Source: Leptotrichiaceae bacterium (GTDB taxonomy: Bacteria > Fusobacteriota > Fusobacteriia > Fusobacteriales > Leptotrichiaceae). Taken from it: DNA of 12,114 bases. Positions 2,099 through 11,989 of this stretch are shown here, one piece after another. A program made the position numbers and the translations under genes. Positions within the stretch are counted from its first letter, which is position 1; the number at the start of each line of letters is the position of its first letter. The stretch spans positions 1 to 12,114 of the forward strand of contig JAUNKI010000049.1 in the NCBI GenBank assembly GCA_030532815.1, written 5' to 3'. The notes beneath the pieces are model-generated. The model made no database searches, was not told the DNA's origin, and saw only the letters and a program-made list of their open reading frames with translations.

Positions 2099-3313
2099 TC
2101 ATTCCAACATCTTCAAAAAACTTTTCCCGTTCTCGGGATTTTTTACTTTAAAATATTCGGCTACAGTTGCTCCTATGTCGGACATAGTTTTTCTGTGACC
2201 GATATTTATATTTTTCAGACCTTTTTTATAAATAAGAATAGGTACATTTTCCCTTGTATGTTGGGAATGCCCTATAGTCGGATCATTTCCGTGATCGGCT
2301 GTCACTATCAGTATATCATTTTCATTTAGCTTCTTAATTATTTTCTCTATATATCCGTCACTTTTTTTCAGTATTTCGGAATATCTTTCAGGATTTTCAG
2401 CATGCCCTGCAAGGTCTGTTTCCTGAATATTCACACATATAAATCCTTTTTCAAGTTTATCTATTTCGGAAAGAGTAATACGAAATATTTCATCCGTATC
2501 CACAAGGTTCATAAAACTTTTTCCCTGCTCGTTAAATACAATATCCGCAACTTTACCTATAAGTATCACAGGTATATTTTCTTTCCCCAAAATCGTCGGA
2601 ATCTGTGTTTCAGGATTTATTCCGTAGCCCAAATGCCGTACCATATATCCCTTTTCATAAACTTTTGACTTTGGAGCGTTTATTCCTATATATTTTCCGC
2701 TTTTTTCCTCTTTTGCAGCTTTTATACTTTCAATTGTAGCCTCTGTTCCTCCAAATACTATTACTCTTTCAGTTTCCACTATTTTTCTTACAATTCGGCC
2801 TATTTTTAATTCTTCTTCAAAGGAAATTTTCCGGAAAGTTCCCGTTACGTTATAAACCTGACCTAAATCCGTTTCCAAGTTATCTCCTACGGCTACACAA
2901 TCGTTTACCCACAAATAACGGAGTTTTTCACCTATTTTTTCAACTTTGTACCCTTCTTTTACAAGTGCTTCATAGACATCGTCTATATAATGACTGAATG
3001 GTGCTATTAGCGGTTTTATAGGATATGTTCCCATTATTTCCTGATGCCCAAGAAATGTATCTCCACCGTGATGCATGAGTTCGGCTTTCCCGTATACGGC
3101 TTCAGGATTTATTTTCATCTTTCCGTAATTTTCTCCAAGGGCATTCATTATTCCTAATTTTTCAAGATTTTCAAGTTTCAGTTCAGGCACACTGTCTATT
3201 ATATGTTTACATGTATTTGCACCTAAATCTGCAGGTCTTGTTTTAGGTACATCCTCCATATATCCGACTCCGTAACTATCCAGTACTATTACTATAAATC
3301 GTCCCTGCTTCAT
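2099..3313 (-). CDS. yhfW: YhfW, phosphopentomutase-like metalloenzyme
   Basis: A 404-residue member of the alkaline phosphatase/phosphopentomutase superfamily, close to the roughly 408 residues I recall for E. coli YhfW. The full two-metal set is visible: Asp12 in VLDSYGVG, candidate nucleophile Thr86 in GGDTFLGHQEIMG, Asp300 and His304 in QETDLAGH, Asp340-His341 in TADHGND, and His352 in QHTRE. The same pattern is seen in phosphopentomutase (DeoB), where the threonine carries the phosphate. An inserted cap domain spans roughly residues 95-290, as in DeoB. It is therefore probably an active Mn-dependent phosphomutase or phosphoryl-transfer enzyme in the cytoplasm; its true substrate is unknown. 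The ATG at 3313 follows AAGAGGTAACAG. It is the last gene of the operon, 33 bases after yhfX. Its yhf neighbours argue against ordinary DeoB. Confidence 0.92.
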   Translation of the reverse strand: MKQGRFIVIVLDSYGVGYMEDVPKTRPADLGANTCKHIIDSVPELKLENLEKLGIMNALGENYGKMKINPEAVYGKAELMHHGGDTFLGHQEIMGTYPIKPLIAPFSHYIDDVYEALVKEGYKVEKIGEKLRYLWVNDCVAVGDNLETDLGQVYNVTGTFRKISFEEELKIGRIVRKIVETERVIVFGGTEATIESIKAAKEEKSGKYIGINAPKSKVYEKGYMVRHLGYGINPETQIPTILGKENIPVILIGKVADIVFNEQGKSFMNLVDTDEIFRITLSEIDKLEKGFICVNIQETDLAGHAENPERYSEILKKSDGYIEKIIKKLNENDILIVTADHGNDPTIGHSQHTRENVPILIYKKGLKNINIGHRKTMSDIGATVAEYFKVKNPENGKSFLKMLE

Positions 3314-3346
3314 TCTGTTACCTCTTTTTCTATCTATGAATATGAA

Positions 3347-4507
3347 TTACTGTATTTTTTCTCCGAGAGATGTATATTTACCTATAATTTCAAATTTTCC
3401 GTCCTGTATTCCCTTAACAAGAACCACTGTTGACCTCGTTACAAACATTTGGGCTCTGAAACAGCTTAAAACCGTATCGTTTACATTCCCCTCTTTTTCC
3501 ATTTCCAGATAATAGTCAATATTGTCGGGATCCATTTTAGTTACGTTTATTTTACTGCTTTCTAAAAAATTTCTGCCTACTAAAACATTTTTTATATTTG
3601 AACGTCTGTAATAACCTCCACCGTAAAAATATCCCTTTCCTCTGAAATTATGCGAAATTTCAGATACATAAACATAAGCGGGAATTTCAACGGTTTTACC
3701 GTTTTCTCCCATAGGTATCGTTCCTGTAAGGGAATGACCCGGCTCTCCATGGGTTCCTCCCATTTTGGAAATCAGCTTTATATTTTCTATTGATGTGGCT
3801 GACGGTATATTTATTTCTTTTACTTTCTGATTAAATTTTTCCTTTAAAATTTTTTTTACTTTCATTACCGCTTTTAAATTTGTAGTGCATTTTATTTTTT
3901 TGCTTTTATTATCATATAAAAAACATGGAAATGAAGTCAGTCCGTTTATATTAACTCCCTTCAACTCCTTTATCTTTTCAATATCCTTCTCTATACTGTC
4001 TATTTCAAAACCAGCTTCCTGTCCGGGATAAATTTCAGAATTACTGCCTATTACCCTTAACATAATATCCTGAACTTTTCCCAGCTCTAAAGCAATTTCG
4101 GAAATTTCCTTTATTTTTTCATAAGAATACACTGTTATTATTTCAGGATTACTTTCAACAACTTTTCTCATCATATGTCTGGGTATTTGTACTAAATGTC
4201 CCACATTTCCTATTTTCAAACCGTTATTTATAAACAGTTCAGCTTCCTTAAAATCAACTACAACTGCTCCGGCATATCCCATTTCTTCAAGTTTCCTCGC
4301 TAAATAAGGATTCCTCCCTATCTGCTTTGTCATATAATAAAGTTTGACATCATATTTTTCAGCTTCCTTCAATATCTTTTCAGCATTTTTCAGAAATATA
4401 TCCACATCAATTATGTAACTGTCGGGCATTACATGTCCTTTCTGATGTAATTCAAATGCTGCATTTATAAGCTTCTCATTCCTCTCTTTCAATACATCCA
4501 AAAACAA
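3347..4507 (-). CDS. yhfX: YhfX, fold-type III PLP enzyme (alanine racemase-like)
   Basis: A 386-residue protein matching YhfX of E. coli, about 387 residues. The N-terminal half is an alanine-racemase-type TIM barrel. The likely PLP lysine is Lys61 in LYYMTKQIGRNP, near the barrel start as in this fold. Other conserved stretches are GHLVQIPRH (153-161 region), THGEPGHSLTGT with a probable phosphate-binding role, and a C-terminal beta domain containing GYFYGGGYYRR and CFRAQMFVTRS. The start codon is TTG at 4507, with AAGGAG nine bases upstream. The resulting MFLDVLKERN resembles the beginning of E. coli YhfX, which supports this start. It lies six bases after yhfS, so the two PLP enzymes are probably translated together. 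The reaction is unknown; racemase, aldolase and decarboxylase activities all exist in this fold. Confidence 0.92.
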   Translation of the reverse strand: MFLDVLKERNEKLINAAFELHQKGHVMPDSYIIDVDIFLKNAEKILKEAEKYDVKLYYMTKQIGRNPYLARKLEEMGYAGAVVVDFKEAELFINNGLKIGNVGHLVQIPRHMMRKVVESNPEIITVYSYEKIKEISEIALELGKVQDIMLRVIGSNSEIYPGQEAGFEIDSIEKDIEKIKELKGVNINGLTSFPCFLYDNKSKKIKCTTNLKAVMKVKKILKEKFNQKVKEINIPSATSIENIKLISKMGGTHGEPGHSLTGTIPMGENGKTVEIPAYVYVSEISHNFRGKGYFYGGGYYRRSNIKNVLVGRNFLESSKINVTKMDPDNIDYYLEMEKEGNVNDTVLSCFRAQMFVTRSTVVLVKGIQDGKFEIIGKYTSLGEKIQ

Positions 4508-4513
4508 GTTATA

Positions 4514-5617
4514 TCACTCCTTTGTTATTTTTCCGTATGCCTGCTCCAATATTCTTATAACAGTTTTTGACCCGCTTCTGTTCGGATTTATTCTTATCAT
4601 CTTTTCCTTTAAAGCCGGATTGCTTTTTAAAAATGTTCCTGAAACTTTATAAAATAAAGGAGGAATTTCATATTTTGATTCCGCTCCCACCGGATTGGGC
4701 AATGCACCCAGAGTTTCAGCCGATTTTATTATCCTTTCAGCTATATTTTCCTTAAATTCCACTAATATTACTTTTGACTGGGCATTTCCCAAAAATACAT
4801 TTTTTATATAAGGATATTTTTCTCTGTTGTTTAGTTCTCTTACTAATTCTTCACTTTCCCGTGCCTGTATTGCAAGACTTACAGGAGCATACACAAGTCC
4901 TCTGAGCACTTCCATCGCTTCATAACCTTGAACCTGCCCTCCTCCTGAATAATTCATCTTTTTTACTTTTTCAATAAATTCTTTTTTTCCTGTCAGACAC
5001 CCTATTCCTACAGGACCGAGCAGCTTAAAAGTTGAAAAAGCTGAAAGTTCGGCTCCTAGTTCACAGCCTATTTTATCTACTTTCATTACTGCGTAATTAT
5101 CGTCTGTAAGGATTGTCATATCTGCCCTTATTTTCTTTATTTTTTCTATAACTTCGCCTAAAATGTAGCTGTCATCAGGTTTCTGTCTTGTATGCTGCAG
5201 AAGACAGAATTTCAGTTCACTGTCGTTTAAAATTTCCGAAAGTCCGTTCAAATCATTGAAGTCATATTTTATAATATTCAGATTCATACTTTTTATATTT
5301 ACTTCAGTAGTAGGATAAATAGGAGCATCGTGAACCAGAATTTTACTATTCGGCTCCACAGCGGATAAAATACCCCATCTGATTGCCTGAGTTCCTGCAC
5401 CTCTTGTCAACATACAGCTTTCAGCATTGAAAAAATCAGCTATAATTTTTTCCGCTTTTTCCGTTTTTACAGGTTTATTACCTTCCTTACTCAGTCCCAA
5501 ATCTCCCAATTCCAGAAATTCACTTCCTGACATATGCTCCGTAATAATATCCACTAATCTGAACTGTTTTTCCTGAGCTTCTGAAATTGAAAGAGAATTT
5601 AACGGATATGTTTTCAT
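4514..5617 (-). CDS. yhfS: YhfS, fold-type I PLP-dependent aminotransferase-like enzyme
   Basis: A 367-residue protein of the aspartate aminotransferase fold, near the 361 residues I recall for E. coli YhfS. A cofactor phosphate-binding loop is seen at TRGAGTQAIR (71-80). The Asp pairing with the pyridine nitrogen is probably in LTDDNYAVMK (170-179). The Schiff-base lysine is probably Lys198 in FSTFKLLGPVG. A glycine-rich stretch NYSGGGQVQGYEA (222-234) follows. This layout resembles lyases and selenocysteine synthase-like members as much as true aminotransferases. The ATG at 5617 is preceded by GGAGAAAAGGAA. It follows php after 78 bases, the largest internal gap of the operon, with no convincing promoter or hairpin in it, and runs into yhfX six bases later. 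The substrate is unknown. Confidence 0.91.
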   Translation of the reverse strand: MKTYPLNSLSISEAQEKQFRLVDIITEHMSGSEFLELGDLGLSKEGNKPVKTEKAEKIIADFFNAESCMLTRGAGTQAIRWGILSAVEPNSKILVHDAPIYPTTEVNIKSMNLNIIKYDFNDLNGLSEILNDSELKFCLLQHTRQKPDDSYILGEVIEKIKKIRADMTILTDDNYAVMKVDKIGCELGAELSAFSTFKLLGPVGIGCLTGKKEFIEKVKKMNYSGGGQVQGYEAMEVLRGLVYAPVSLAIQARESEELVRELNNREKYPYIKNVFLGNAQSKVILVEFKENIAERIIKSAETLGALPNPVGAESKYEIPPLFYKVSGTFLKSNPALKEKMIRINPNRSGSKTVIRILEQAYGKITKE

Positions 5618-5695
5618 TTCCTTTTCTCCTGATTCTTTGTATTATTTGTTTATTATTTAAGTACTCTTTTTTATTCCTGTCCTATTTATAAATTT

Positions 5696-6568
5696 TTATT
5701 CAAAAAATTTTTTAGGATTGGTTTTCAGCATTTTTTCAACGGAACTTTCTTTTATTCCGCTTTCTCTTAATTTCGGAATAAATCTGTCAAATATATAGTT
5801 GTATCCTATTCCTCCGTTATACTTCATATTTGATTTTCTTGTAATATCCAGTGACAGAAAAACTCTGTCTATGAGATCTCTTTTTTCTATTTCTTTCAGA
5901 ATTTCAATACGGATATCATCAGACATGTAATTGTTTTTTCCTATTGTATCAAACTCGATATATACTCCGTTATAAAGCATTTTCAGGACATATTCCCCAT
6001 TTCCGCTCAAATCAGTATGACCTATTACAACTTTATCAGGATTCACGTTATATTCTTTGAACAATTTGACCTGCTCATGTCCCATTGTTCCCAAAGATGT
6101 ATGGGTAGTTATGGGAGCTCCCGTTTCCAAATGAGCAATTATCGCAGCTTTAAAAACTTTCAATTCCGTATCGGTTATCTTATCCTTGCTTGAGCCTATT
6201 TCTCCGATTATCCCGGCTTTAACGTCCGTTCCGTCTATTCCTTCTGAAATTTCCTTTTTCATTATTTCAGACAGTTCCTTTTCACTTTTTTCGTAAACAA
6301 AATCAGGATAGAAAGGCTCTTTATAAAATCCTGTTGCACATATGACGTTTATTCCCGACTTTTCGGAAACTTCCTTTATATAGTCAATGTTTCTTCCCAT
6401 TCCTATATTAGTAACATCTGTTACGTTTCTTACTCCGTTTTCATACAGTTCTTTAAATTCCTTTATTGTCTCATCTTTACAGTCCAGTCTACAGTCATCC
6501 AGTTTTTTTACTCCGGACAGGTCTATAAAAATATGTTCATGCATCAATGTATAACCGTCTTTTAGCAT
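5696..6568 (-). CDS. php: Php (YhfV), phosphotriesterase homology protein
   Basis: A 290-residue amidohydrolase-superfamily TIM barrel. The metal ligands are His10 and His12 in LMHEHIFIDLS, Glu123 in IIGEIGSS, His156 in TTHTSLG, His184 in VIGHTDLS and Asp241 in LSLDITRK. Each is two residues earlier than the ligand I recall for E. coli Php (12, 14, 125, 158, 186, 243), so spacing is conserved throughout. As in E. coli Php, a Glu bridges the metals where bacterial phosphotriesterase has a carbamylated Lys. Related enzymes hydrolyse lactones, phosphoesters or esters; E. coli Php has no clear known substrate. The ATG at 6568 follows AAGGAGCGG. It sits between the YhfT permease and the PLP enzymes and probably acts early on the imported compound. 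Confidence 0.94.
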   Translation of the reverse strand: MLKDGYTLMHEHIFIDLSGVKKLDDCRLDCKDETIKEFKELYENGVRNVTDVTNIGMGRNIDYIKEVSEKSGINVICATGFYKEPFYPDFVYEKSEKELSEIMKKEISEGIDGTDVKAGIIGEIGSSKDKITDTELKVFKAAIIAHLETGAPITTHTSLGTMGHEQVKLFKEYNVNPDKVVIGHTDLSGNGEYVLKMLYNGVYIEFDTIGKNNYMSDDIRIEILKEIEKRDLIDRVFLSLDITRKSNMKYNGGIGYNYIFDRFIPKLRESGIKESSVEKMLKTNPKKFFE

Positions 6569-6601
6569 ATTCCCGCTCCTTTTATCAGTATTTTATATTT
6601 A

Positions 6602-7936
6602 CTATTTTACTGCAGCAGGTACATACAGATGAAATATGTACAGTATATTTAATATTATTCCGAAAAGTATAGTGGCAACAGGACCTACAGCCATATCTAC
6701 AAGAGGTTTTTTTGAAGTTTTATTTAACAAGTAAAAACCGCTTACAAAGAGAAATCCTAGTCCGCTTCCTCCTGCCATTTCATTTGCGGCAATCATTCCT
6801 CCTACCAGTAGGGAAACTTCAAGGACTTTTGTCATCGCCGTTCTTATCTGATCTCCGCAGGCTTTCACTCCCGGAAATTTATCCAAAGTTTTAGCCGTAA
6901 ACTCAAGGAGCAATATTTCAACTGCTAAAATCACAGTTCCTGCAAAAAAAGCAATAATCGGATTTTTAATAAATATCCCTACTGCAAATACAAGGGTCAT
7001 TCCTGCCGGACCGTATACTCCGGTTGTTATTGCAGTAGTGGCGACTAACGGTATAAACCCTACACTTCTTGCCAAAGCTACCAGTCCTGCTTCAAAATTT
7101 TTAGTACTTCCCACTGATACATCTTTTAATGTTTCTACCAGTAATTTTAAGGATATCGGATCTCCTGCCACAATTCTCAGACTGCATGCAGCCGCTATCA
7201 AACCTCCCATAATTGACAGAGGAATTATATTTTTCTTGACTCTTGCAACTCTCGCTGAAAAAATTCCTATCAACATTTCATTTGAGCCGGTTTTTTCAGT
7301 TTTTCTGTCACATATTGCAAAGATAAGCATTATTACAACACTTACAAGAAGAGCCATACCGTCGGGATTTAAAGTAATATTTACACTTTGGGAAACTGGT
7401 ATTTTCCCGAATACCGTTACAATCTGTCTTACAAGTAATGTAATTATAAGTGTAAAAGCACCTTTCCTCACTCCGTACTGATACCCTACCACCAATGCCG
7501 GAAACACTGAAAATCCTACTATAATCGGAGCACCTACTTTAGCCAGACTTGGCAGAAAATCAATAGGCATTTTACTAAACAGTTCCACTATTTTCTCAAG
7601 ACCGAATACCAATCCTATTCCATATAATGCTCCTATTATTCCCGCCACTACGGCTCCGGTTTTATTTCGGGGAGTGGATACTCCTATTATATCCGTTCCG
7701 AGCAGTATACTGTGTATCAGTATAATTGTGGAACCTATTGAAAACGGAATTCCGAAACCTATCACAAGACCGAATGACAATGCAAAACTTGTGGCAGCCA
7801 GAGCTTTTCTGTCTATTCTTCCTTCTAAAAACTCGGGTACCATAGGTCTTAATCCGTCATTAAATACTGCTACACCAAGATTTGCCAATATTGAAGCAAA
7901 ACCGCTTAAAAATCCGCTTATTAAAAATTTCTCCAT
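6602..7936 (-). CDS. yhfT: YhfT, multi-pass membrane permease of the yhf operon
   Basis: A 444-residue, strongly hydrophobic protein with about 10 to 12 probable membrane segments, close to the 434 residues I recall for E. coli YhfT. The N-terminal helix (residues 3-25) is followed by a polar stretch around NDGLRPMVPEFLEGRIDRK. Later features include a conserved-looking GVSTPRNKTGAV loop near residue 85 and a Gly-rich helix around GGMIAANEMAGGSGLGF (about 388-404). There is no cleavable signal peptide. Context makes it the likely importer for the operon's substrate in the inner membrane. The ATG at 7936 follows AAAGGAGGA, 28 bases after yhfU. Whether it is energised as a secondary transporter or by a PTS-like phosphotransfer through YhfU is not known. 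Confidence 0.9.
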   Translation of the reverse strand: MEKFLISGFLSGFASILANLGVAVFNDGLRPMVPEFLEGRIDRKALAATSFALSFGLVIGFGIPFSIGSTIILIHSILLGTDIIGVSTPRNKTGAVVAGIIGALYGIGLVFGLEKIVELFSKMPIDFLPSLAKVGAPIIVGFSVFPALVVGYQYGVRKGAFTLIITLLVRQIVTVFGKIPVSQSVNITLNPDGMALLVSVVIMLIFAICDRKTEKTGSNEMLIGIFSARVARVKKNIIPLSIMGGLIAAACSLRIVAGDPISLKLLVETLKDVSVGSTKNFEAGLVALARSVGFIPLVATTAITTGVYGPAGMTLVFAVGIFIKNPIIAFFAGTVILAVEILLLEFTAKTLDKFPGVKACGDQIRTAMTKVLEVSLLVGGMIAANEMAGGSGLGFLFVSGFYLLNKTSKKPLVDMAVGPVATILFGIILNILYIFHLYVPAAVK

Positions 7937-7964
7937 TTTTCCTCCTTTATATTACTGATTTCCG

Positions 7965-8324
7965 TTAACCTTTTATTTTTAAACAGCCTGCAACAGCTTT
8001 TACAACTTCTTCTGCCGATTGGGGTGTAAATCCGAAAGCAACCTTTCCTTTATCCACTTCTTCTTTTATTTTTTCTTCAGAAAGGATATTTCCGGGCATT
8101 GCAAGAGTTGCACATTTATCTGCTCCTATAAGTGCAATAGCCATTGCCAATGCTCCACCTCCACCTGTATTGCACGCTCCGAAATAATAGTCGGCATTCC
8201 CCAGTTTAACGTCCATTGCCGCATCAATATCACTTTTTATGCTTATTACCGCATCAGGAAAATGCTTTTTCAGCAATTCCGCCACATTTTCCTTGTCTAT
8301 CTGTCCCCCCACTGCTATTTTCAT
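7965..8324 (-). CDS. yhfU: YhfU, small glycine-rich DUF2620 protein
   Basis: A 119-residue protein, the same size as E. coli YhfU, of the DUF2620 (glycine-rich SFCGS) family. It begins with a Rossmann-like strand and glycine turn, MKIAVGGQIDKENVAELL. The family glycine motif is FGACNTGGGGALAMAI (48-63), carrying Cys51; other cysteines are 71 and 114. There is no signal peptide or membrane segment, so it is cytoplasmic. It lies just before the permease gene, with GAGGAGGT just upstream of its ATG at 8324. The small alpha/beta fold, the conserved Cys in a loop and pairing with a polytopic permease recall PTS EIIB components, but this is speculation. No function is established for the family to my knowledge. 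Confidence 0.9.
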   Translation of the reverse strand: MKIAVGGQIDKENVAELLKKHFPDAVISIKSDIDAAMDVKLGNADYYFGACNTGGGGALAMAIALIGADKCATLAMPGNILSEEKIKEEVDKGKVAFGFTPQSAEEVVKAVAGCLKIKG

Positions 8325-8343
8325 TTATACCTCCTCATTCACA

Positions 8344-8706
8344 TTATTTATTTTCTTCTATGAGTAATAAATTTATAAGAATATATTTCTTTTCTTCTTC
8401 AGGTAATTTTTCACTAAAAATATTTTTTTCAATATCTTCATAAATTTTTTCAATTTTCTGAAATTTATCCGACGCTAATATTTCCTGAAACACATTTTCA
8501 TCAATATTACTTACGTTTCCACCTTCTTTTATTCTTTTTAAAGCCATTGATAAATGAGTTATGAACATTGCTCCGTTATCTTCAGTCAATCTGATTTCCC
8601 ATTTTTCATTTAAATACATTATTAAATTTGTTACCGTATTGTATATTTTTTCGTCTATTACACCGGAATTTTTCAATATTTCCATCCGAAATTTCAACTT
8701 TTCCAT
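8344..8706 (-). CDS. yhfY: YhfY, free-standing PRD regulatory protein
   Basis: A 120-residue all-helical protein with the layout of a single PTS regulation domain (PRD). The first half carries the PRD signature with a histidine, DNGAMFITHLSMALKRI (43-59, His51). The second half ends LPEEEKKYILINLLLI (101-116), where a typical PRD would have a second His in the YIxLH motif; here Ile and Asn occupy that region and His51 is the only histidine. PRDs are phosphorylated by HPr or EIIB proteins and control antiterminators and activators. With no DNA- or RNA-binding domain of its own, it presumably acts through a partner, most simply YhfZ, encoded 53 bases upstream. The ATG at 8706 follows CAGGAG. 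The family call is good; the mechanism is inferred. Confidence 0.85.
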   Translation of the reverse strand: MEKLKFRMEILKNSGVIDEKIYNTVTNLIMYLNEKWEIRLTEDNGAMFITHLSMALKRIKEGGNVSNIDENVFQEILASDKFQKIEKIYEDIEKNIFSEKLPEEEKKYILINLLLIEENK

Positions 8707-8759
8707 TTTGTATGAAACTCCTGTATAAATTTTATCCTGATTTTCTGAAAATGCTCGAA

Positions 8760-9686
8760 TTAATATGTAGGCAGCGTTTTATTTTCCATTACATTTCTCT
8801 GTATTTCTTTAATATAACCCATGTCTATTATTTTTTTAGCCAATCTTTTCAGATTATCGTTATTGCTGTTTACTATAAGTACAGCTTCGCTTGCATGTCT
8901 TAACATCTTATTTTGAGGTAATTCTTCATAATCTATGTCTATTTTCTTTTCCTCAACTTCGTCAAAATTCCATATAATTCCGTCAACGACTTTATTTTCA
9001 AGTAATTTCGGAGTTTCATTATAATCTATTTCCACATAAGTGTAGTCAGAACCTTCCAGACATTTTTTCGTTAAATATTTCTGATCTTCGGAATTTCTAT
9101 CAATTCCTATTTTTTTCAGTTTCTTTACACCCGGAGCTTTAAAAAGTACATGTTTTGAAGCATAGCTGTTTTCTCCGAATTCAAATATAGCTTCAATATC
9201 TTTATTTTTCTCTCTTTCAAGTTTATAAGCAAGTTTGGATACTACTGCAAAATCATACACGCCTTTTCTGAGAAGATCCATTCTTATTTTTGAACCGCTC
9301 ATATATGCAAAATAATAGTCCAAATTATTATTTTGGAAATTATTTTTTATTCCCGTTGCAAGTCCTTCATATCTCTTTGAATAAGGTAACGGCATAACTC
9401 CTACCAGAATATCGAGATCACTTTTTTCTAAAAGAATGTCATTATTTATTTTTTTCACAAAGGAACCTAAAACTCCTCTTTTTTCAAATTCTACAGCCCC
9501 TTCATTCTGTAAATAAACAAATGCTTTCTGAATAAGTCCTACGGAAATTTCATATTTTTCCGAATAATGAATTACTGACGGAATTCTTTCTCCCACTTTA
9601 GAGAACAAAAGTTCTCTTGCAATTGATAAGATGGCACGATTGTTTTTGCTCATCTTTTTTTCCTTTTTCTCTTTTTCTCTGTTCAT
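8760..9686 (-). CDS. yhfZ: YhfZ, winged-HTH regulator of the yhf operon
   Basis: About 308 residues from the ATG at 9686. An N-terminal lysine-rich tail precedes a GntR-like winged HTH: the segment beginning SIARELLFSKVGERIPSVIHY, then YEISVGLIQKAFVYLQNEG as recognition region, and the wing to SFV. The remaining roughly 220 residues form an effector domain of the periplasmic-binding/LysR-substrate type (DILVGVMPLPYSKRYEG, MDLLRKGVYDFAVVSKLA). E. coli YhfZ is about 301 residues with the same design. The start is uncertain. The in-frame ATG at 9722 has no ribosome binding site and lies about 20 bases from the predicted transcript start. The ATG at 9686 follows AAGGTGG, and the one at 9653 follows a weaker AAGG. 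As first gene of its operon it is probably an autogenous, substrate-responsive regulator. Confidence 0.88.
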   Translation of the reverse strand: MNREKEKKEKKMSKNNRAILSIARELLFSKVGERIPSVIHYSEKYEISVGLIQKAFVYLQNEGAVEFEKRGVLGSFVKKINNDILLEKSDLDILVGVMPLPYSKRYEGLATGIKNNFQNNNLDYYFAYMSGSKIRMDLLRKGVYDFAVVSKLAYKLEREKNKDIEAIFEFGENSYASKHVLFKAPGVKKLKKIGIDRNSEDQKYLTKKCLEGSDYTYVEIDYNETPKLLENKVVDGIIWNFDEVEEKKIDIDYEELPQNKMLRHASEAVLIVNSNNDNLKRLAKKIIDMGYIKEIQRNVMENKTLPTY

Positions 9687-9748
9687 AATTTCCACCTTTT
9701 CCTTAATTTTTTTAATTTTCATTTTTTTGAAAATTTATATTTAATTAG

Positions 9749-9776
9749 ATTATACCTTAAAATTTCAAAAAGTCAA
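9749..9776 (-). promoter_or_regulatory. Promoter of the yhf operon
   Basis: On the minus strand TTGACT (9771-9776) and a perfect TATAAT (9749-9754) are 16 bp apart, the best promoter match in this gap. Transcription would start near 9742, giving a leader of about 55 bases to the chosen yhfZ start. Approximate inverted copies of a TTTTTGAAA-type motif flank the -10 (9724-9736 and 9759-9773) and could be an operator, though such A/T runs are common here. Confidence 0.7.
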
Positions 9777-9926: not shown

Positions 9927-10376
9927 TTAAATTTTTATTTTGTATACAACCTTTTTTGCGGAAACAGGCTCATTGACCATCATTCCGGGCATATGTCCGT
10001 CTTCAGGAAAAAGAACAAGTACGTCTCCTTCTTTCAGTAAAACCCTGAACAGCTCATTTCCTTCATATTCTATCAGATCTTTTTCCTTATCCCTTTTGAT
10101 TTCCCTTAGATTACGAATATTGTTAAAAGCTATGTATTCTTCACCTTTCAGTATAATCTGAACATCAATATATTTTAAATGGCTTTCCCAGAAACATTCT
10201 TTTTCGGATTTTGTAGTATAATGTCCGACATTCATTTTCATATTAATTTCAGGAATTTCATAAACTCCCGCTTCATATTCTTCTATTTTATTTTTATTTG
10301 TAAATTCAATACACTTTTTTATTTCCTCTGAAAGACTTTGATTCTGAAGATTATCCTTTAAATTTGTAAAAATCAT
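9927..10376 (-). CDS. YhcH/YjgK/YiaL family protein (NanQ-like sugar anomerase)
   Basis: A 149-residue cupin-like protein of the DUF386 family, at the usual length. The family signature ESHLKYIDVQIILKGEE (64-80) contributes Glu64, His66 and Asp71; the second metal-site motif is LFPEDGHMPGM (122-132) with His128. E. coli NanQ (YhcH) accelerates ring-form conversion of N-acetylneuraminate, and relatives YiaL and EbgC act beside other sugar operons, so an anomerase-like or mutarotase-like role is the best general reading. Its ATG overlaps the permease stop codon (ATGA, 10373-10376), with GGGAG upstream, so translation is coupled. It probably processes the sugar delivered by that permease. Sialic acid cannot be assumed, since no nanA, nanE or nanK is in view. 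Confidence 0.87.
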   Translation of the reverse strand: MIFTNLKDNLQNQSLSEEIKKCIEFTNKNKIEEYEAGVYEIPEINMKMNVGHYTTKSEKECFWESHLKYIDVQIILKGEEYIAFNNIRNLREIKRDKEKDLIEYEGNELFRVLLKEGDVLVLFPEDGHMPGMMVNEPVSAKKVVYKIKI

Positions 10377-11989
10377 ATTTTATATTTCTCCCTTATTTTA
10401 TTTTTATATATTTCAGCTTGAGTTCCGTATATTATCTGTATTCCGTTTCCTGATCTTATAACACCTTTGGCATTCAGTTCTTTCCATCTGACATCATCCG
10501 AAACTTTGGCAGAATCCTTTACAGTCACTCTCAATCTTGTAATACAGGCATCTATATTTTCTATATTTTCCACTCCTCCCAATGATATTACGATTTCATC
10601 TATAAATTCATTTTTTTCTTTGGAAGCATCGTAATCTTTCCTTGTATAAAGCTTATTCTCTCCTTCTCCTCTTCCCGGTGTAGGAATATTGAATTTAAGT
10701 ATCAGTGTTTTAAATATAAAATAATAAATAAACGCATACAGAGGACCTAATATGAGAATCCAGTAATAGGATGTTTTAGACGGTCCCTGTAAAAGACCGA
10801 AAAATGTAAAGTCTATTATCCCTCTTGAAAATGTAATTCCTACAGCTACATTCAGTACATACATAAGCATGTATGCCAATCCTTCAAGTAATGCGTGAAT
10901 GACATACAATATCGGAGCAACAAATAAAAATGTAAATTCTATAGGCTCCGTTATTCCCGTAAGAAATGATGTCAATGCTGCAGATATAAGTATACCTTTT
11001 ATTGCCGCCTTATTTTTATCTTCTGCCGTTCTGTACATTGCCAAAGCGGCTGCAGGCAGACCGAACATCATAGGTAAAAAGCCTCCCGTCATAGTTTTTG
11101 TAGCAGCTGCACTAAAGTGTTTTATTGTAGGATCTGCAAGCTGAGCAAAAAATATGTTTTGTCCTCCGGCAATCATTTTACCTGCAACTTCTTCGTACCC
11201 TCCGAGCTGAGTATACCAGAACAGGGGATAAATGGCGTGATGCAGCCCGAAAACATTGAGTATTCTCATAGTAAACCCGTAAAAGAATGTTCCTACAGCT
11301 CCTGTTGCGGCAAATATTTCTCCCGCCTTTACAATTCCCATAAATATAGTCGGCCATATAAACGGAAATATTACAGCTACTGGTATGAAAAGTATAATTG
11401 TAATAACGGGAACAAATCTGTTTCCGCTGAAAAATGCCAGATAATCAGGCAGTACTTTACCCGAAAATTTATTTGTAATCCCTGCTGCAACTATACCGCA
11501 AATTATCCCTCCGAATACACCTGTCTGAAGTGTAAATATTCCAAGCTCCCTTGCATAAAGTGCTGCCGTTCCTCTTGCTGCCGCTTCACTAAGTCCTTTG
11601 GATATGAGTGCATCATAAGTTACCATATCAGGAATTATTCCCTGAAATTTCAAAACAGTTCCTATTATCGTATGGAAAAGCAGAAATCCCAGAACTGCCG
11701 ACAAAGCCGCCGTTTCCTTATTTTTATTTGCAAGTCCTATGGCTACACCTACTGCAAAAAGTAAAGGAAGATTTGCAAAAACAAACAGCCCTGTGTTTAA
11801 AAACAGCTGCATTACATAGTTTAAAAATGTTCCTTCTCTTAAAAAAGTAAGATTATATGTTTCTATCAATACGGGATTTGTAAATGATCCTCCTACTCCT
11901 AAAAGTATTCCTGCCATCGGCAATACAGCTATCGGGAGCATAAATGCCCTACCTATCTTCTGTAATACTGAAAAAAAATTATTTTTCAT
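10373..11989 (-). CDS. PTS EIICB permease, glucose/maltose (MalX-like) family
   Basis: A 538-residue fused phosphotransferase permease. The EIIC domain (about 1-432) starts with KIGRAFMLPIAVLPMAGILLG and carries the family motifs GLHHAIYP (249-256) and GITEPIEFTF (345-354), the latter at the sugar site. A linker precedes EIIB (about 460-538), with phosphorylated Cys482 in ACITRLRVTV and the NGIQIIYG strand (515-522). No EIIA domain is attached, so a separate glucose-type EIIA is needed. It imports and phosphorylates a sugar at the membrane. Domain order and length resemble MalX, but substrate cannot be read from sequence; glucose, a glucoside or an amino sugar are possible. The ATG at 11989 lacks a convincing ribosome binding site and is overlapped by the stop of a short upstream ORF. 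It is followed by the coupled YhcH-family gene. Confidence 0.92.
   Translation of the reverse strand: MKNNFFSVLQKIGRAFMLPIAVLPMAGILLGVGGSFTNPVLIETYNLTFLREGTFLNYVMQLFLNTGLFVFANLPLLFAVGVAIGLANKNKETAALSAVLGFLLFHTIIGTVLKFQGIIPDMVTYDALISKGLSEAAARGTAALYARELGIFTLQTGVFGGIICGIVAAGITNKFSGKVLPDYLAFFSGNRFVPVITIILFIPVAVIFPFIWPTIFMGIVKAGEIFAATGAVGTFFYGFTMRILNVFGLHHAIYPLFWYTQLGGYEEVAGKMIAGGQNIFFAQLADPTIKHFSAAATKTMTGGFLPMMFGLPAAALAMYRTAEDKNKAAIKGILISAALTSFLTGITEPIEFTFLFVAPILYVIHALLEGLAYMLMYVLNVAVGITFSRGIIDFTFFGLLQGPSKTSYYWILILGPLYAFIYYFIFKTLILKFNIPTPGRGEGENKLYTRKDYDASKEKNEFIDEIVISLGGVENIENIDACITRLRVTVKDSAKVSDDVRWKELNAKGVIRSGNGIQIIYGTQAEIYKNKIREKYKI

Follow-up and report, generated by a model that had tools for sequence, protein, structure and literature searches.

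The yhf operon of a Leptotrichiaceae bacterium: companion genes, an exchangeable part and a possible amino-sugar substrate

We have analysed a stretch of 12,114 nt from a Leptotrichiaceae bacterium (contig JAUNKI010000049.1), called the window below, which is a whole contig of a 1.85-Mb draft genome that is 82.5% complete. Its minus strand carries ten genes: a phosphotransferase system (PTS) EIICB gene, yhcH and the eight genes of a yhf operon (yhfZ, Y, U, T, php, S, X and W, 2099–9722). The operon very probably serves the catabolism of a single small molecule that the cell takes up. Protein families and neighbouring genes in related loci lead us to suggest tentatively that this molecule is an amino-sugar compound, possibly derived from cell walls.

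Gene content and companion genes

Families of open reading frames (ORFs) were assigned with Pfam and NCBIfam profiles. These identify each of the eight yhf families in the window, in ORFs which are open, co-directional and separated by gaps of 6–78 nt, in agreement with an earlier note on this DNA that described one minus-strand operon with short gaps. The gene orders given there are also correct: Z-Y-U-T-php-S-X-W in the window, Z-Y-X-W-php-U-T-S in E. coli MG1655. The E. coli locus (yhfZYXW-php-yhfUTS, b3376–b3383) contains the same eight families, with solved structures for X, S, php and Z, but it differs in order and is flanked by trpS and the frl genes, whereas the window has the EIICB-yhcH pair upstream. 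The window operon is a further instance of a known but unexplained kind. No physiological substrate is given in the literature found on yhf genes, in line with the earlier note, which knew of no settled one, and no functional paper on these genes or on DUF4310/4311/4312/SFCGS was found among open-licence PMC papers. An excerpt of a metabolic-model paper assigns yhfW to a reaction at E 0.47 (PMC3423039), and an excerpt of another paper lists yhfZ in a bacterial interspersed mosaic element (BIME) attenuator cluster (PMC2965389).

Co-occurrence was studied in 98 Fusobacteriota genomes, 16 with yhf genes and 82 without. YhfT and YhfU are found in the same 16 genomes (Fisher 1e-18), YhfX and YhfS in those 16 and in G089 (17/98), and YhfZ in 15 of the 16. 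We have also compared 96 yhf loci, chosen by YhfT similarity (the best 80 of 327), so that counts among them refer to the window's nearer kin. All eight families are found together in 83 of these loci. Both comparisons agree with the proposal of the earlier note that the eight genes behave as one unit. On the other hand, its description of the window operon as reordered is not supported: the window order is the commonest (56/96 loci; L043, whose contig of 14150 bases is as long as that of L125, was omitted from order counts), and the E. coli order is an outlier, found only in the E. coli locus. An extra gene lies between U and T in L026, and in L086 a further gene resembling php is located some 5.5 kb upstream. 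The yhf genes are present in 5036 of 5426 complete E. coli genomes, and loci are named for several phyla.

The set of eight genes, which the earlier note considered complete, overlooks a ninth gene. Many loci have gaps of about 1.0–1.4 kb between T and php or between php and S, which hold another gene. According to clustering, a divergent amidase-signature protein accompanies 61 of the 96 loci: it is inside the operon in 37, directly downstream in 16, divergent upstream in seven and four genes downstream in one. Five of these proteins were scanned with PF01425, whose gathering threshold is 27 bits; three are over it (30.4, 30.5 and 32.8 bits) and two under it (25.0 and 26.7 bits). Residues K53, S103 and S127 are found in 61/61 proteins, and from their motif positions we take them to be the putative Lys/cis-Ser/Ser triad of the amidase-signature family. 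Named relatives are called amidase, amidase-family (amidotransferase-A-like) or hypothetical protein, and a sequence search with one of the proteins found no relative in PDB. Strong matches (E <= 2.4e-121) are present in eight of the 16 Fusobacteriota genomes with yhf genes and in none of the 82 others (p 8e-8). Weak matches (E 1e-6 to 6e-4), including that in the window's genome, are found in frames of 481–520 residues, which we take to be GatA. The ninth gene is absent from the window, and the 82.5% complete genome has no full-strength match.

A serine hydrolase is found at 14 of the 96 loci, and in 12 of them it is inside or directly beside the operon. Its top NCBIfam model is PBP4B (NF002968), with 254–316.5 bits in three scanned proteins, under the cut-off of 385. 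There is none in the window and nothing at E <= 0.001 in its 82.5% complete genome. The 16 Fusobacteriota loci comprise eight with the amidase, five with the serine hydrolase and three with neither, the window among these three; within Fusobacteriota loci, the two hydrolases replace each other. Outside this phylum they can be found together, for example in L026, L027, L062, L064, L068 and L097. A close case is L126, from Pseudoleptotrichia goodfellowii, which has the order of the window, the same upstream PTS-yhcH genes and a YhfT 86% identical, but its php and S are separated by a serine hydrolase gene that the window and L127 lack.

Active sites, neighbouring genes and proposed chemistry

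Lys61 of YhfX and Lys198 of YhfS, which we assume to be lysines of the pyridoxal phosphate (PLP) type, are each kept in 92/92 sequences; the N-terminal fold family of YhfX is alanine racemase (PF01168). Six positions of php, which we take to be metal ligands, are kept in 94/94. In YhfW the nucleophile position is Thr in 46 and Ser in 42 sequences (88/88), six ligand positions are kept in 88/88 and H349 in 79/88; presumably they correspond to the metal ligands and the Thr/Ser nucleophile of the alkaline-phosphatase type. His51 in the PRD of YhfY is kept in 94/94 homologues. The window copy of the operon has all of these conserved active-site residues and looks functional. Two equivalog models do not reach their cut-offs: deoB (TIGR01696) for YhfW, with 167.5 bits against 341.2, and E. 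coli php (NF007373) for php, with 363.9 bits against 486.

YhfU (DUF2620) has a predicted RpiB fold, with RpiB or LacAB_rpiB in ranks 1–23 of the structural list. Its Cys is kept in 96/96 cases. A profile alignment with RpiB superposes the Cys residues of the two families, and likewise their Thr-Gly pairs; we take the Cys of the RpiB C-G-T-G motif to be catalytic. This alignment is weak by itself (E 0.0036, probability 9%; the control profiles W, X and Y give E 0.022, 0.037 and 0.58); it is the predicted fold that carries the relationship. The RpiB sequences compared are longer than YhfU by about 25 residues, and YhfU has no PF02502 match. No invariant or near-invariant Arg or His is found in 83 YhfU sequences; in RpiB, the DH motif and C-terminal Arg residues presumably bind the phosphosugar.

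Amino sugars, possibly from cell walls, are pointed to because NagB and MurQ are found as neighbours, together with the PBP4B-like hydrolase. NagB is beside 11 of the 96 loci, always on the operon strand: directly downstream in six, directly upstream in two, second downstream in two (behind another gene, of the HAD hydrolase family in L089) and fourth downstream in one. One NagB, that of L055, was scanned, and it exceeds the nagB cut-off. MurQ adjoins three loci (L034, L059 and L069), over the cut-off in all of them, and MupG is confirmed in L034 and L069. For comparison, the 96 loci contain 1034 non-yhf ORFs, among which about 0.3 occurrences of a single-copy gene would be expected if a genome of about 3000 genes is assumed.

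The operons for N-acetylmuramic acid (MurNAc) show some likeness to these loci. In E. coli, PBP4B/yfeW starts 4 nt behind murP, and AmiE of B. subtilis is, we assume, of the same serine-hydrolase class. Both MurNAc operons (murQ-murP-yfeW in E. coli, murQRP-amiE-nagZ in B. subtilis) are similar to yhf loci in their PBP4B-type hydrolase and PTS, and share MurQ with three of them, but neither contains any yhf enzyme. The presence of amiE, formerly ybbE, in the B. subtilis operon is described in an excerpt of PMC5061867. PTS genes are beside or near the yhf operon in the window, L126, L127 and L129. In L095, which has no YhfZ, a gene for a LicT-type antiterminator (CAT_RBD and PRD, 508–1335) is found in front of yhfY.

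The protein families and their intact active-site residues suggest the following route. YhfZ would control the operon, and the sugar phosphotransferase system would tune it through the PRD protein YhfY. YhfT would import the substrate together with a soluble partner, YhfU, which has a predicted RpiB-like fold and an invariant Cys. Where present, the PBP4B-like hydrolase or the ninth-gene amidase would cut an amide before or after entry, and the metal hydrolase php would then open a further amide or a lactone. The PLP enzymes YhfX and YhfS may act on an amino carbon, and YhfW may shift a phosphate on a sugar-phosphate intermediate. The product would enter amino-sugar metabolism, in some lineages through glucosamine-6-phosphate and NagB. 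The substrate would most likely come from bacterial cell walls or from some other compound of the amino-sugar type.

Several observations weigh against an amino-sugar substrate. Only a minority of the loci have NagB (11/96) or MurQ (3/96) as a neighbour. Four of the 16 Fusobacteriota genomes with yhf genes have no MurQ over the cut-off, and kinship among the genomes confounds the enrichment of MurQ (12/16 against 35/82 in genomes without yhf, p 0.03). In L034 the PTS protein next to MurQ fits a sucrose model better than the MurNAc model, with neither over its cut-off. Neither extra hydrolase is found beside the operon in E. coli or in the window. Finally, a PF04227 gene and a PfkB-like gene, the latter recognized by eye, are directly behind yhfW in L051 (8998–10894). 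We take PF04227 to be pseudouridine-5-phosphate glycosidase, which would point to ribose chemistry.

The L051 genes fit an alternative which we find rather unlikely, a catabolism of pentose or nucleoside type. In such a pathway php would open a phospho-sugar lactone, YhfW would move the phosphate from C1 to C5, YhfU would isomerise the sugar and the PLP enzymes would handle an attached amino acid. It agrees with the phosphopentomutase-like nature and Thr/Ser nucleophile of YhfW, with the RpiB-like fold predicted for YhfU, and with the 110 bits that php scores against a phospho-furanose lactonase model, a weak match in view of the cut-off of 630; no lactonase work on the php family was found in our literature search. 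On the other hand, YhfW is far under the deoB cut-off, and binding of a phosphosugar by YhfU in the RpiB manner is doubtful because it has no conserved Arg or His. NagB also recurs at 11 loci, and the PF04227 neighbour is found at one locus of those scanned. A further alternative, recovery of D-amino acids from amides or esters, for example of cell walls, in which the hydrolases would release what YhfX and YhfS racemise and degrade, suits the fold family of YhfX and the serine hydrolase of L126, which also matches Flp, FmtA and alkaline D-peptidase in PDB, but seems quite improbable, as it leaves the phosphomutase YhfW, the RpiB-like YhfU and NagB unexplained.

Exchange of php, YhfU and YhfT

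The earlier note also held that the operon moves as a block. One clear case speaks against this: in G087, G088 and G090, which belong to the same family as the window and which we take to be Sebaldella, the histories of php-U-T and of S/X/W differ within a single operon. Their YhfT groups with those of E. coli and of a Vibrio plasmid (support 100), and a tree that keeps the family together is rejected (approximately unbiased test, p 3e-12), while the YhfW tree keeps them with the window's family (99). YhfU sides with T (99.9; family-together p 0.025), and so does php, more weakly (77; p 0.03). The partners of W are S (support 99.9), X (99.6) and, less firmly, Z (90); of the three contrary groupings, only that for S is rejected at 0.05 (p 0.018, against p 0.06 for X and p 0.13 for Z). 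The php-U-T order in these three genomes is the same as in E. coli and Vibrio. We read php-U-T as an exchangeable cassette on the substrate side, and Z with S-X-W as the more conserved remainder of the operon.

Agreement between tree distances, computed over the 83 loci that hold all eight yhf genes, is highest for T-U (0.79), X-W (0.74), php-W (0.70) and S-W (0.67); for T and X with names shuffled 100 times it is at most 0.12. The php distances of this wider set fit W better than T (0.55) or U (0.32), which counts against a strict php-U-T module.

Transfer of the eight genes between genomes as one block, which would account for a whole set with varying order, is in our opinion unlikely. The spread of the operon is patchy, as seen in the 16 of 98 Fusobacteriota genomes, and it is also found in plasmid records. 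A plasmid search with YhfT gave five matching records, from which three E. coli ones (4.8–4.9 Mb) were set aside as chromosome-sized. One of the two kept is the Vibrio halioticoli plasmid AP024877 (244 kb; L129, 5435–20717), with PTS EIIC and DUF7916 upstream of the operon and a Tn3 transposase and resolvase downstream. The other is a 704-kb (704842-base) Cetobacterium somerae replicon, NZ_CP092520 (L118), a plasmid according to PLSDB. In addition, a table of clade-distinguishing genes of L. rhamnosus, in an excerpt of PMC7513527, includes DUF2620, PRD and YhfX-family proteins. Against block transfer stand the split histories of php-U-T and S/X/W. The Vibrio plasmid operon also lacks S, and E. 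coli YhfS as a query did not find this plasmid. The YhfT and YhfW of the window fall among those of its own family in the trees, with no sign of recent transfer into the window.

A parallel operon is found in G090 (L140, 4319–7536), with the families PRD, Gly_rich_SFCGS, DUF4312, DUF4311, DUF4310 and KDGP aldolase. It is like the yhf operon in having a small PRD protein, followed by a YhfU-like small protein, membrane proteins and a sugar enzyme, but the downstream enzymes differ. The SFCGS protein is similar to YhfU, with an hhalign E of 1.3e-4 and a probability of 54%. No clear likeness of YhfT to DUF4311 or DUF4310 was seen when profiles were compared (E 0.24–0.53, on four-sequence alignments), and the predicted model of YhfT has no clear match among solved folds, either of PTS EIIC or of other transporters. 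SFCGS is over the cut-off in nine of the 98 Fusobacteriota genomes. As a speculation with only a small chance of being right, YhfU-YhfT and, in parallel, SFCGS-DUF4312-4311-4310 might represent uptake systems of a new type. In these a permease with no clear solved relative would work with an RpiB-fold partner whose invariant Cys acts on the incoming sugar, either isomerising it as it enters or becoming phosphorylated itself. The PRD protein would place the system under PTS control, and php-U-T would then be a swappable specificity cassette.

Features of the window and significance of the operon

A promoter-like site before yhfZ and a hairpin after yhfW suggest that the eight yhf genes are transcribed together and separately from the PTS pair. 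All these features are on the minus strand. The promoter-like site (TTGACT-16-TATAAT, 9749–9776) has 11/12 consensus matches and is the best of 42 in the scanned stretch; shuffled sequences contain on average 32.9 sites, all grades counted. The terminator hairpin (2041–2077) has 13 pairs and a U tract (-20.2 kcal/mol, z -6.55), and was missed by a simple terminator scan with a loop limit of 8.

The first gene, yhfZ (8760–9722), codes for a GntR-type regulator (NF041241, 329.8 bits, cut-off 260; PF14502 and PF14503). Read by eye, its start is likelier the ATG at 9686, behind GGTGG, than 9722; the NF041241 model starts at residue 22 of the ORF. It is followed by yhfY (8344–8706), a single PRD protein (PF00874, 37.7 bits), yhfU (7965–8324; PF10941, 143 bits), and yhfT (6602–7936), a multi-helix membrane protein and presumed permease (PF10797, 541.6 bits; model pLDDT 89.0). 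The php gene (5696–6568) codes for a metal hydrolase of the phosphotriesterase family (PF02126, 289.5 bits), yhfS (4514–5617) for a fold-I PLP enzyme with a PF22475 C-domain, and yhfX (3347–4507), with a TTG start, for an alanine-racemase-type PLP enzyme with a PF21279 C-domain. The last gene, yhfW (2099–3313), corresponds to a phosphopentomutase-like phosphomutase (NF009049, 628.6 bits, cut-off 254). The best-scoring PDB sequences are 4kbx for X, 4j8l for S, 4lef/1bf6 for php and 2ozz for Z, which are named YhfX, YhfS, php and YhfZ. The closest identities to named relatives are 90% for YhfT, with Leptotrichia sp. OH3620_COT-345, and 79–81% for YhfU, with P. goodfellowii.

Two flanking genes upstream do not belong to the core: a YhcH/YjgK/YiaL-family gene (9927–10376; PF04074, 121.5 bits) and a PTS EIICB of the glucose/GlcNAc/maltose group (10373–11989; PF02378 and PF00367), whose top NCBIfam model is PTS-II-BC-glcB with 512.7 bits, under the cut-off of 591.8. 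This overlapping pair (9927–11989) is found upstream of the operon only in the window, L126 and L127 among the 96 loci. Four clostridial loci (L021, L025, L055 and L058) have, by eye, large chemotaxis-receptor-like or sensor genes just upstream of yhfZ. Past the terminator, the window contains an ordinary-looking redox group (106–1831): an HxlR-type regulator, an NAD(P)H-binding protein and a Flavodoxin_2 protein.

Our searches of open-licence PMC papers brought up neither the ninth gene nor the php-U-T exchange, nor an RpiB-like fold for DUF2620. The yhf operon matters: it is present in most complete E. coli genomes and in several phyla, with no function in the literature found. Its ninth gene, the exchangeable php-U-T, the RpiB-like DUF2620 and the NagB, MurQ and PBP4B-like neighbours narrow its chemistry to a range that may be screened with purified enzymes and knockouts.

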